IMG/VR virus record: IMGVR_UViG_3300032242_002960
Span: 1-31,689 of that record
Source of the DNA: a virus
Strand: one strand, 5' to 3'
Length of the DNA stretch: 31,689 bases
The position numbers were made by a program, and so were the translations under genes. Each line of letters opens with the position of its first letter. The first letter of the stretch is position 1. This document shows positions 5,387-25,265 of the stretch, piece by piece. Below the pieces are notes generated by a model. The model saw only the letters and a program-made list of their open reading frames with translations, did no database searches and had not been told where the DNA came from.

Positions 5387-5788
5387 TTAGTCTTGCGCTT
5401 CTTTCAGTTGCTTGAGAAGATCGTTGACTGATGCTTGAAAATCAATCGTAACGTCTTGTTTTATATCAGCTTTTACATCATAACGCTCACGATAATCGTC
5501 TGGATACTGCCCTTTTAACGCTAATTCTGCAATGCGGCTATTAAATGCTTTATTTTCGACATTGGCAAGGATCATGTTCTCCCAATACGCTTGGCCATGC
5601 GTTGTAGCCAATGATAGCGTTTCATCAAAGTATGGATCTTCTTTTTTAAGGCGCGCAGCAGTAGCTTTGCTGATCCCTATTGCAGCGTACATGTTCTTTT
5701 GTGAACTGCCTAATTTCCCGAGTTCTAGCACAACTTTTGCATGCTCTTCGTTAAATTTAAAATCTCTTGGTTTTGGTTTAACTGCCAC
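5387..5788 (-). CDS. Probable terminase small subunit / HTH DNA-binding protein
   Basis: The 133-aa product has an N-terminal helix-turn-helix (SSQKNMYAAIGISKATAARL, about 28-47). A helical middle (DPYFDETLSLATTHGQAYWENMI) follows, then the block ALKGQYPDDYRERYDVK that is typical of small terminase subunits, and a C-terminal acidic helix (VNDLLKQLKEAQD) of the kind that contacts the large subunit. The role would be recognition of the packaging site in concatemeric DNA. It is unusual that the gene is in the - strand operon, about 18 kb from the large subunit and on the other strand. A different HTH regulator is the main alternative. Confidence 0.6.
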   Translation of the reverse strand: MAVKPKPRDFKFNEEHAKVVLELGKLGSSQKNMYAAIGISKATAARLKKEDPYFDETLSLATTHGQAYWENMILANVENKAFNSRIAELALKGQYPDDYRERYDVKADIKQDVTIDFQASVNDLLKQLKEAQD

Positions 5789-6041
5789 ACTTCCACCTTT
5801 TTAATGCTGCTGCTTTGCGTGTTGGCTTTCCATTATCGTCCTTCATAGGACCTGGCATGCCTGACATGCGAGCGCAGAATGAGTCTTTACGAGCTCCGCC
5901 TTGTGGCTGTGGTGCTTTTAAATTCGAACCAGTAGCCGCATTATATTTAGCACGACCTTTGGCGGTAAGCCCAGCGCCTTTAGATACAGGCAACTTTTCA
6001 CCACGGCCAATTGTAAGCGAAACATTTTTCTTTGTTGCCAT
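5778..6041 (-). CDS. DUF6321 family small basic protein
   Basis: The 87-aa lysine- and glycine-rich protein carries the conserved blocks GLTAKGRAKYNAATGSNLKAP, DSFCARMSGMPGPM and GKPTRKAAALKRWKC, which I recognise as the DUF6321 phage family. The function is unknown. The basic, low-hydrophobicity composition suggests nucleic-acid or virion association. It overlaps the following terminase-small-like gene by 11 bases, and its ATG overlaps the stop of the gene before it (TAATG), so the three are probably translated as a set. Confidence 0.8.
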   Translation of the reverse strand: MATKKNVSLTIGRGEKLPVSKGAGLTAKGRAKYNAATGSNLKAPQPQGGARKDSFCARMSGMPGPMKDDNGKPTRKAAALKRWKCGS

Positions 6042-22562: not shown

Positions 22563-22828
22563 ACTACGGGTATCAGATAACAGGCGTACTAGAATCACCG
22601 CCTGGCAATATTACAGGATTCAGGGTATTGGTTTGCACGCTGCGCCATTTTGAGACAGTCGACGTGCCGGCAAAGATATTTGATAAAGAGACGCTCAGGT
22701 ACATTAAGTTTAGAACAGATCTTCCGTACAAATTAGATATTCGAAAGCTGCCAGTGGAAGTGGAGAATAAAATTCGCTTTCCATTAAACAACTACCTTGA
22801 TCGGTGGGTAAGTGCTAACTTATCATAA
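22559..22828 (+). CDS. Hypothetical 89-aa protein
   Basis: The start is GTG at 22559, overlapping the previous stop as GTGA. NYGYQITGVLESPPGNITGF then VLVCTLRHFETVDVPAKIFD suggest a beta-rich small protein, followed by a helix (LPVEVENKIRFPLNNYLDRW). Its end overlaps the Hint gene start (TAATG). Not recognised. Confidence 0.6.
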   Translation: MNYGYQITGVLESPPGNITGFRVLVCTLRHFETVDVPAKIFDKETLRYIKFRTDLPYKLDIRKLPVEVENKIRFPLNNYLDRWVSANLS

Positions 22829-23838
22829 TGGCAATAGCATCGGACACTCCCATACCCACGGTTAAGGGTTGGCTGCCAGCAAGCCAGCTCATGGTAGGTG
22901 ATTATGTATTTGACCAGCACGGGTTTCCCCAGCGCGTTAAAGTAATCCAGCCATACATACCGCAGCAGATGTACAAGATCACGCTTGACGACGGACTGTC
23001 AATTGAAGGAGACAAGCATCTTGCGTTTTATCCTGAAACCAAACTTAATCGAGTTTGTGTTAGCCAGTTCTTATCGCGCCGCAAAGCAAACGCGCAACGC
23101 CGACCTAACCGGCGTAAGATGGTGCTAGTGCAGAAAACAGTAGAGCAGCTTTTAAAAACAGGGATCCGTAATCCTGACGACGACCGGTATGAGTATACGA
23201 TTCCAACGTGCCAGCCAGTTAATTACCCGTACCAAGATCATCCAGTCCCGCCATTTGTAGCAGGCCTATGGTTTGCAGCACAGCGCGTTGGTGGAACAAT
23301 TAAAAAAACAAAGCTGTTCCATGACCACGTGAAAGAGCGGCTGAGAGATGTTGGTTATCAGGTTGTTAATAAAACAACAGCGCGCTTTGGTGTAAAGCCT
23401 TCGGTAAACCAGTCGTTCCTAACACGGTACGCACCGATTCCTAAAGTGCTACCACCAGAGTATTTGCTTGGAACGTCAGAGCAACGTATTGATCTCTTAG
23501 CTGGAATCATGTGCTCAGATGAGTACAACTACAATATAAAAACAGATACGTATTACTACAGAACTAGAGACAAGCGGTTCTGTAGGATGCTGCAAAACCT
23601 CTGTGAATCGCTTGGAATCAGAACAATGTCCAAACTAAATTCAGAAGAGTATAGTATTTATGAAGTACGGTTTAGAACAGAAATACCTTTAGTACCAAAC
23701 CGTAACCCTCTACAAAGAACAATTAAATTCAAACGGCGTACGCTTCGTAAAATAGAAGAGATCAAACCGTTTGCTTGTGTTCACATCGAAACAGAAAGCC
23801 AGTTCTTAGCTGGTGAAGGATATATCCCGTGTCTTTGA
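22828..23838 (+). CDS. Free-standing intein-like Hint domain with degenerate LAGLIDADG endonuclease
   Basis: The product is 336 aa. Residues 5-40 (SDTPIPTVKGWLPASQLMVG, DYVFDQHGFPQRV) are an intein block A and following strands. GDKH (61-64) corresponds to block B His. 317-336 (CVHIETESQFLAGEGYIPCL) corresponds to blocks F and G. The middle has two LAGLIDADG-like helices, FVAGLWFAAQ (143-152) and LLAGIMCSDE (223-232); only the second keeps an acid. The first residue is Ala/Ser rather than Cys, and the end is PCL instead of HN, so normal splicing is unlikely. It overlaps the large terminase start by 10 bases. It may be a homing endonuclease derived from a terminase intein. Confidence 0.75.
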   Translation: MAIASDTPIPTVKGWLPASQLMVGDYVFDQHGFPQRVKVIQPYIPQQMYKITLDDGLSIEGDKHLAFYPETKLNRVCVSQFLSRRKANAQRRPNRRKMVLVQKTVEQLLKTGIRNPDDDRYEYTIPTCQPVNYPYQDHPVPPFVAGLWFAAQRVGGTIKKTKLFHDHVKERLRDVGYQVVNKTTARFGVKPSVNQSFLTRYAPIPKVLPPEYLLGTSEQRIDLLAGIMCSDEYNYNIKTDTYYYRTRDKRFCRMLQNLCESLGIRTMSKLNSEEYSIYEVRFRTEIPLVPNRNPLQRTIKFKRRTLRKIEEIKPFACVHIETESQFLAGEGYIPCL

Positions 23839-25265
23839 ATAAAAAGCAAGAAAAGATAATCGCCGATTTTGCGGTAAAAAATAAGAACTGGCCTAAAGAA
23901 GAACTAGACCTTGCGCTATGGCGTATCAACTGGGACTTAACGGCGCTAGAACATCAACGCGAACCAGAAGTAGAATACGATACGTTATTCTTATGCGCAG
24001 GCCGTGGAGCAGGTAAGACACACATGGCAGCAAACTGGATTGGGCTACGCGCTGCGCTATATGACCATACCCGCTGGTTGGTAGCAGCGCCAACATCTAA
24101 CGACATCCGTGGTACGTGCTTTGAAGGCGATTCAGGACTTCTTAACATTATTCCACACTCGTTGATTGACAACTACAACAAATCGCTGTCAGAGATTCAC
24201 CTTAAAAATGGTAGCATGATCCGAGGTATTCCAGCAACAGAGCCAGAGCGTTATCGTGGTACGCAGTGGAACGGCGCATGGATGGACGAGCTTGCAGCGT
24301 GGGATTACTTAGACGATGCTTGGGACCAAATCCAGTTTACGTTGCGTTTAAAAGATGCGCGGATTGGGCGCGTGCAGCAGATTATTACAACAACGCCAAA
24401 ACCAAAAGAATTAATTGTAGACATTGCTGAAGGAAAAATTGGCGGCGAAGTGTACATGGTTAACGTATCATCATACGCAAACCGTAAAAACCTTTCGGCA
24501 TCGTTCTTTAAAGCACTTGAAACATACGAAGGCACTGACCTTGGTAAACAAGAGATTGAAGGTTCGATCCTTGATCCAGAAGATTCTGGTATTGTGAAGC
24601 GTAAATGGTTTAAAATGTGGCCAGCAGAAAAGCCAACGCCTGTTCTTGAATACGTTATTGCGTCGTATGACCCAGCAACATCAGAAAAAACAACCAATGA
24701 CCCAACAGCCTGTATTGTATTAGGCGTTTTTGAACAGCAAGATGCTGGAACAGCCGTTATGTTACTTGATTCATGGGATAATCACCTGTCATATCCTGAG
24801 TTACGGCGCAAAGTTGTAGGTGATTACAAAGAAGTAGTGTATGGTGCTGATAATGATTTTGGAAAAGGGCGAAAAGCGGACCTTGTTTTAATGGAAGACA
24901 AGTCAGCAGGTATCTCGTTGATTCAAGACTTGCAGCAATCTGGCACGCCAGTGCGCGGATACAACCCTGGAAGGGCAGATAAAGTGCAGCGTTTAAACAT
25001 TGTTGCGCCTCTTATTGCTAAGGGCAAGGTGTTTATCCCAGAAGATAGCAACAAAAAAGGTGAATTTGCAGAATGGACAAAGCGGTTTATGCGCCAAGTG
25101 TGTTCTTTTCCAGATTCTGGTGGACATGATGATTATGTTGACGCGCTATCACAGGCACTCCGTGTATTAAGGGATTCAGGCTGGATTACTTTGGACATTT
25201 TACCAGCACGCGATTTTGATTATGCAGAAGACAGGCGCAAATATGTAAATCCTTACGCAGAATAG
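23829..25265 (+). CDS. Terminase large subunit
   Basis: The 478-aa packaging motor. ATPase: Walker A CAGRGAGKTHMAA (56-68, K63), Walker B GAWMDELAAW (149-158, D153 E154), and ITTTPKP coupling motif. Nuclease (RNase H-like): ASYDPATS (metal Asp), LMEDKSAG and HDDYVDALSQAL with paired Asp near the end. It cuts the concatemer and drives DNA into the prohead through the portal encoded next. It starts at GTG 23829 within the Hint gene end. Length is usual for the family, with no intein inside. Confidence 0.95.
   Translation: MSLNKKQEKIIADFAVKNKNWPKEELDLALWRINWDLTALEHQREPEVEYDTLFLCAGRGAGKTHMAANWIGLRAALYDHTRWLVAAPTSNDIRGTCFEGDSGLLNIIPHSLIDNYNKSLSEIHLKNGSMIRGIPATEPERYRGTQWNGAWMDELAAWDYLDDAWDQIQFTLRLKDARIGRVQQIITTTPKPKELIVDIAEGKIGGEVYMVNVSSYANRKNLSASFFKALETYEGTDLGKQEIEGSILDPEDSGIVKRKWFKMWPAEKPTPVLEYVIASYDPATSEKTTNDPTACIVLGVFEQQDAGTAVMLLDSWDNHLSYPELRRKVVGDYKEVVYGADNDFGKGRKADLVLMEDKSAGISLIQDLQQSGTPVRGYNPGRADKVQRLNIVAPLIAKGKVFIPEDSNKKGEFAEWTKRFMRQVCSFPDSGGHDDYVDALSQALRVLRDSGWITLDILPARDFDYAEDRRKYVNPYAE

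Follow-up and report, generated by a model that had tools for sequence, protein, structure and literature searches.

A stand-alone class-3 intein gene, predicted to be catalytically dead, is maintained next to the large terminase gene in a group of uncultured phages

Introduction

Inteins are viewed as parasites that at most find a regulatory use while they still splice. Among free-standing intein derivatives, the nearest precedents are the yeast proteins HO and WHO. Both are intein-derived, WHO is encoded beside a host gene, and HO, a known case of domestication, is independent of splicing and still cuts DNA (PMC7282813). Dead LAGLIDADG proteins have their nearest precedent in WhiA (DUF199), a degenerate member of this group that has lost its catalytic residues and is kept by selection for a new role (PMC3781837). 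For a third terminase component, the closest precedent is the HNH packaging proteins such as HK97 gp74, a terminase-linked product proposed to help the motor (PMC9410871, citing Kala et al., 2014). Finally, class-3 (WCT) phage inteins, such as those of LittleE TerL, Rousseau DnaB, and Traft412 Cas4, combine Hint and LAGLIDADG domains over their whole length and have Ala or Gly at position 1 (PMC5050341).

Here we analyze a 31.7-kb phage record (the window) in which the large terminase gene terL is preceded by a gene for a 336-aa protein, P0001. The protein shares the domain composition and the first residue of class-3 inteins. It resembles HO/WHO in being a free-standing intein derivative, WhiA in the loss of catalytic LAGLIDADG residues under continued selection, and HK97 gp74 in its link to the terminase.

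Results

Positions 1 to ~21.8 kb of the window are occupied by minus-strand genes, replication genes among them. A plus-strand packaging operon follows from ~22.3 kb and comprises genes for proteins of 95, 90, and 336 aa, terL, and the portal gene (Table 1). The positions of the open reading frames bear out the original prediction, made from the sequence of the window, of an intact 336-codon gene that ends 10 bases into terL. The GTG start of terL lines up with the terL starts of relatives. A ribosomal frameshift fusing the two genes was considered; inspection by eye showed no classic slippery heptamer at the overlap.

Several neighboring genes vary among relatives. Both small genes 5' of the intein-derived gene (MKRINPHTNKPF... 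and VNYGYQITGVL...) occur in many relatives and are missing in some, for example in loci L029 and L092. The interval between terL and the portal gene holds a 302-aa gene in L256 (10628-11536) and a 437-aa gene in L261 (12152-13465); in the window it holds a short ORF only. A DUF6321 protein (Pfam E 8e-23) is encoded at 5778-6041 (-) of the window, adjoining the TerS-like gene described below.

Table 1. Coordinates of the features discussed in the text (positions in the window)
Feature	Position	Strand	Description
TerS-like HTH gene P0003, 133 aa	5387-5788	-	Far from terL, beside the phrog_69 exonuclease gene
Small conserved protein, 95 aa	22275-22562	+	Opening gene of the window's packaging operon; missing in part of the clade
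Small conserved protein, 90 aa	22556-22828	+	Lies between the 95-aa gene and the P0001 gene; missing in part of the clade
P0001, stand-alone intein gene predicted to be splicing-dead and nuclease-dead	22828-23838	+	336 aa, ATG start
N-terminal Hint half, residues 1-66	22828-23025	+	Block A has Ala as the first intein residue; block B (GDKHLAF) is degenerate and has lost the WCT Trp
LAGLIDADG helix 1, FVAGLWFAAQR	23251-23283	+	Catalytic Asp position is Ala151 (23278-23280)
LAGLIDADG helix 2, EQRIDLLAGIMCSDEYN	23476-23526	+	Asp231 kept in the window (23518-23520)
C-terminal Hint half, blocks F and G	23728-23835	+	Block F Cys317 at 23776-23778; PCL-stop in place of the THN end
Bases shared by the intein-derived gene and terL	23829-23838	+	10 bases, from ORF positions
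terL, large terminase, without intein	23829-25265	+	GTG start; Pfam Terminase_6N/6C, PHROG

The P0001 gene derives from a class-3 intein. Tblastn against isolated phages yielded full-length matches to inteins within TerL, DnaB, and Cas4-like hosts (388 records, best E 1e-19), and PHROG terminase profiles matched P0001 through their intein insert (2e-12). The only Pfam match was to Hom_end, below threshold. The profile of the P0001 family matched class-3 DnaB inteins in PDB (2e-8), so that the intein similarity on which the original prediction depended was recovered by profile search. That prediction also called for the intein-bearing terminases nearest to P0001; the closest sequences proved to be class-3 phage inteins in TerL, DnaB, and Cas4/RecB. 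No close relative of P0001 was found among the records of the isolated-phage collection.

Structure prediction agrees with this descent. The AlphaFold (AF2) model, built from 19 relatives (pLDDT 90.1, pTM 0.87), has a complete Hint fold with a double LAGLIDADG domain, the LAGLIDADG helices being at residues 142-150 and 217-228. The best PDB match of the model is PI-SceI, over the whole length (E 7e-12, TMq ~0.7); archaeal VMA inteins are also matched end to end, and class-3 DnaB inteins across the first 70 residues. In BFVD, the best match is A0A6J7WN65, a 293-aa protein of an uncultured Caudovirales phage, followed by the LittleE terminase with its intein.

To compare functional residues, we aligned 18 true phage inteins with 33 non-redundant P0001 relatives, the window included, and tallied residues over 125 distinct family proteins. 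The 18 inteins have the features of class 3 as defined in PMC5050341. They mostly start with Ala, Gly, or another non-nucleophile after a host Lys (K, then ALAIDTPI...), end with THN before T or S, and contain Trp in block B and Cys in block F, except that the Trp is absent in AM4. Members of the P0001 family begin with Met-Ala/Gly exactly at intein residue 1 (Ala in 118/125, Gly in 7/125). Because class-3 inteins naturally have no Cys1, Ala1 of P0001 is not a loss and the absence of Cys1 is ancestral; hence, the missing Cys1 was dropped as a sign of decay. The first residue, earlier reported as missing, is in fact present, since residue 1 of class-3 inteins has its aligned counterpart in the Ala that follows the start Met.

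Other splicing residues were lost. The terminal HN, correctly noted as missing from P0001, is absent in all 125 distinct relatives, and the Thr of the WCT triad has gone with the THN end. The block B Trp of the triad is lost in 125/125 proteins and the block B His in 55/125; the block F Cys is retained in 99/125. The family genes have their own start and stop codons and no exteins in frame. The start codon lies just before intein residue 1 and the stop codon is at the place of THN, that is, the gene corresponds to exactly one excised intein.

The LAGLIDADG center is affected as well. The first catalytic acid is D in 17/18 true inteins and in 0/125 family proteins. The second, D in 18/18 true inteins, is D in two family proteins (the window and L001), E in one (L160), and basic (Lys or Arg) in 109/125, and both acids together occur in none of the 125. 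Among divergent members beyond this set, L029 and L034 have Glu at site 1, and L191 and L195 have Asp at site 1 and Arg at site 2; none has both acids. As the first acid is replaced by Ala151 in P0001, its endonuclease center is not intact, and judging from these residues the whole family is predicted to be nuclease-dead. Thus, of the intein blocks and two LAGLIDADG helices originally described, the fold and the helices stand (tblastn, PHROG, AF2 model), but block B is degenerate and the first acid is gone. Neither "is an intein" nor "is a homing endonuclease" fits P0001, as the defining features of each fail.

The family is also strongly basic. The median net charge is +15 in the 33 aligned members and +16 in the 125 proteins vs. 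+1 in the 18 inteins. The isoelectric point is 9.1-9.9 (median 9.6); the medians are 7.9 for the 18 inteins and 5.4 for TerL. P0001 has the highest net charge among the 24 larger window genes checked. Gains of K/R in the family map to positions 173, 231 (the second catalytic site), and 283. This basic turn would fit a protein that came to hold nucleic acid instead of cutting it.

The distribution of the gene was analyzed in 230 loci fetched via TerL or via the gene; all relatives are metagenomic contigs, and some contigs are counted more than once. In IMG/VR, a single pattern gave 433 confirmed relatives, and the best 80 of these 433 were fetched. Both the gene and terL are present in 196 of the 230 loci, the gene always upstream; in 193 of these 196, which are IMG/VR loci, it overlaps or abuts terL. 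Nineteen loci end at a contig edge. The remaining 15, with terL and enough upstream sequence but no gene, all belong to a sister clade with 57% identical TerL. Every TerL of at least 70% identity that has enough upstream sequence is accompanied by the gene, which was never seen away from terL among the loci examined. Hint domains inside terL of relatives, a check proposed with the original prediction, were not found, as no TerL of the P0001 clade carries an intein.

The overlap geometry is identical in 121 of 124 distinct relatives scored. In L135, L191, and L195 a short ORF is inserted between the intein-derived gene and terL, and so the coupling of the two genes is not absolute. The insert in L191 and L195 is HNH/endonuclease VII-like (MNTYYEQNRDKVLAYQRKRRAEMPAE..., CCAICANK, HIDHCH); that in L135 is another short ORF.

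The frame is intact over 311-338 codons in the 125 distinct proteins, core residues are invariant, and no pseudogenes were seen in the family, although P0001 is only 26-40% identical to most relatives. In 15 pairs, the gene has a dN/dS of 0.06-0.15 and terL one of 0.005-0.056, while dS is roughly comparable; the values for the gene argue against neutral decay. The family diverges far more rapidly than TerL (median difference 0.68 vs. 0.22), and its distances correlate with TerL distances (Spearman 0.46; 0 of 5000 permutations). Thus, the gene is kept by purifying selection and inherited vertically with TerL, not patchily.

In the tree with the 18 class-3 inteins, a branch supported at 100/100 separates the family from the inteins, and the family hence has one origin. 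It is not placed inside the TerL inteins. The idea of an escaped terminase intein therefore holds as regards intein descent, and an origin from TerL in particular is possible but unproven. A search for ancestral intermediates via the most divergent member, L029, returned close relatives only.

A scan of synonymous conservation revealed no sharp peak that would mark a conserved DNA target in terL or in the P0001 gene, and no excess at the P-loop codons. Synonymous identity is mildly raised across the clade over the first ~14 terL codons (23829-23870; 0.60 vs. mean 0.43). We do not regard this rise as a DNA target, since the overlap and the translation start can explain it.

Sister-clade phages have an Sf6-type small terminase gene (terS; PF20901 / phrog_1482) in the position before terL, with a similar overlap, and therefore a replaced small terminase was suspected first. 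Two outgroups likewise carry TerS upstream of TerL. The Sf6-type family is present in 3/3 sister records tested and absent in 8/8 near-complete records of the P0001 clade, these being metagenomic records of 62-68 kb whose completeness is not certified. P0001 itself matches no TerS family (Pfam, PHROG) and has the fold of an intein; an HNH fold is likewise absent (Pfam, structure match). In Caulobacter phage RW (L279), two annotated large-terminase genes with a methyltransferase gene between them lie downstream of terS.

When 94 mid-sized proteins of two relatives that look complete were scanned against PHROG, matches to phrog_309, a terminase small subunit family, emerged. The corresponding TerS-like gene is found in 8/8 near-complete relatives and, as P0003, in the window; a gene of the phrog_309 type was not found in the four sister-clade records searched. 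P0003 is homologous to TerS of Rhizobium phage RHph_X3_2 (E 2e-7) and of Vibrio phage 1.144.O, and its closest isolated-phage homologues are annotated as TerS or DNA-packaging genes directly before terL. The only solved structure matched by its model (pLDDT 73) with good probability is Sf6 TerS (Foldseek probability 0.99, with a weak E of 0.09). As phrog_309 also matches in many control genomes, the identification of P0003 as TerS rests mainly on the homologues beside terL and on Foldseek. Profile comparison of the Sf6-type and P0003-type families gave no reliable homology. It seems that TerS of the P0001 clade was moved, or swapped for another TerS family, rather than lost.

Discussion

The domestication of an intein in this phage group is well supported. 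The suggestion that the gene was given a new role gains from dN/dS of 0.06-0.15, the single origin, and the obligate synteny with terL, and the long retention of a dead intein before a packaging-motor gene suggests that it was recruited to a new function, either in genome packaging or close to it. We infer a role in packaging itself. At about even odds (roughly 0.5), P0001 is a domesticated, catalytically dead class-3 intein that serves as a DNA-binding accessory co-translated with TerL. A more specific history, which we put forward tentatively and slightly short of even odds, begins with a single capture: the ancestor of a large uncultured phage group would have taken up an entire class-3 intein, which, deprived of its splicing and nuclease functions, would have turned into a DNA-binding subunit dedicated to packaging and co-translated with TerL.

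The proposed mechanism would be as follows. The LAGLIDADG domain would still bind DNA without cutting it, and the basic residue at the former catalytic Asp (Lys/Arg in most members), together with the strong overall positive charge, would hold the DNA. Translational coupling would ensure that P0001 is made along with TerL. The protein could then assist the packaging motor without any catalysis of its own, for example, by placing TerL on the substrate DNA beside the separately encoded TerS. Its role would be analogous to that of the HK97 terminase-helping HNH protein, but its chemistry would not. Several points weigh against this scheme: the synonymous-conservation scan revealed no conserved DNA target, three relatives have a short ORF between the gene and terL, sister-clade phages package without the gene, and the basic charge, as read from the sequences, would suit binding of RNA or protein as well.

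Among the alternatives, the one that survives best, although we consider it unlikely, is that P0001 took over the job of TerS, recognizing the packaging site and loading TerL, and displaced terS from its slot. Sister-clade phages have the Sf6-type TerS in exactly this slot, where it overlaps terL in a comparable way; this TerS family is missing from all eight near-complete relatives, and P0001 is a basic, fast-evolving protein with a DNA-binding fold. However, the discovery of the TerS-like gene elsewhere in the same eight relatives and in the window, with homologues adjoining terL and a fold that matches only Sf6 TerS, led us to demote this explanation.

Improbable too is a WhiA-like role, in which P0001 would regulate transcription or translation of the late operon. 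WhiA, which has lost metal-binding and catalytic residues (PMC3781837), is a precedent, and P0001 is basic and encoded near the head of the packaging operon. On the other hand, WhiA binds DNA via an added HTH domain, while the P0001 model ends in the C-terminal Hint half and has no HTH. Regulation also leaves the almost constant overlap with terL unexplained.

A speculative and quite improbable possibility is a shield, in which the dead endonuclease would remain bound to the original homing site within terL and so keep active TerL inteins from cutting there. It would agree with the kinship of P0001 to inteins that home into the terL P-loop and with the lack of inteins in TerL of the clade; but the P-loop codons show no excess of synonymous conservation, and a shield should not need co-translation with TerL.

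An active free-standing homing endonuclease, originating from a terminase intein and spreading by cutting intein-free or gene-free terL, is what the original prediction considered first, and we now give it very little credence. P0001 does have an intein fold with a LAGLIDADG domain, and its gene adjoins a classic homing target, as terL is for TerL inteins (PMC5050341) and as is the case for WHO, which lies beside its target (PMC7282813). However, no member has both catalytic acids, the second being basic in most, in contrast to the true inteins. Wherever sufficient sequence upstream of a TerL of the clade is available, the gene is already there, leaving no empty allele to home into. The gene co-diverges vertically with TerL, has no observed pseudogenes, and never occurs away from terL. 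Finally, a decaying remnant without function, which the lost catalytic residues and the low identity within the family might suggest, is already refuted by the selection test; the intact frames and invariant core residues also speak against it.

The preferred reading, a domesticated intein assisting the packaging motor, has several implications. A complete intein in which the residues for every catalytic function have been lost is nevertheless strongly selected in more than 100 distinct phage sequences, always with the gene of the packaging ATPase. If P0001 binds DNA or TerL, it would exemplify a route from terminase parasite to terminase partner and provide a clean system for studying non-splicing uses of the Hint fold. 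If it is indeed a packaging subunit, it would be, to our knowledge and in the literature searched, the first domesticated intein serving virion assembly; the search, with subscription papers mostly outside its reach, found no description of a dead stand-alone intein upstream of terL. Similar proteins may carry homing endonuclease labels in databases. The best structural match, A0A6J7WN65, which judging by its modeled similarity is probably a member of the P0001 family, is annotated solely as "DOD-type homing endonuclease domain-containing protein," a label contradicted by the catalytic residues of the family.

Comparison with the described systems shows how P0001 differs from each. Sf6-type TerS, its positional counterpart in the sister clade, has an unrelated HTH fold, and the P0001 clade keeps a TerS-like gene elsewhere. 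HK97 gp74 has an unrelated fold and is an active nuclease that stimulates cos cleavage, whereas P0001 does not have the acids that cutting requires. WhiA carries an additional HTH but no Hint domain, is a bacterial regulator, and shows no synteny with the terminase. HO and WHO have a zinc finger and are active endonucleases, and WHO is mobile and patchily distributed; P0001 has neither the zinc finger, nor an intact catalytic center, nor mobility. Unlike the class-3 phage inteins from which it descends, P0001 has its own start and stop codons and no exteins, retains neither W nor T of the WCT triad, nor the terminal HN, nor a center with both acids, is strongly basic, and is inherited vertically.
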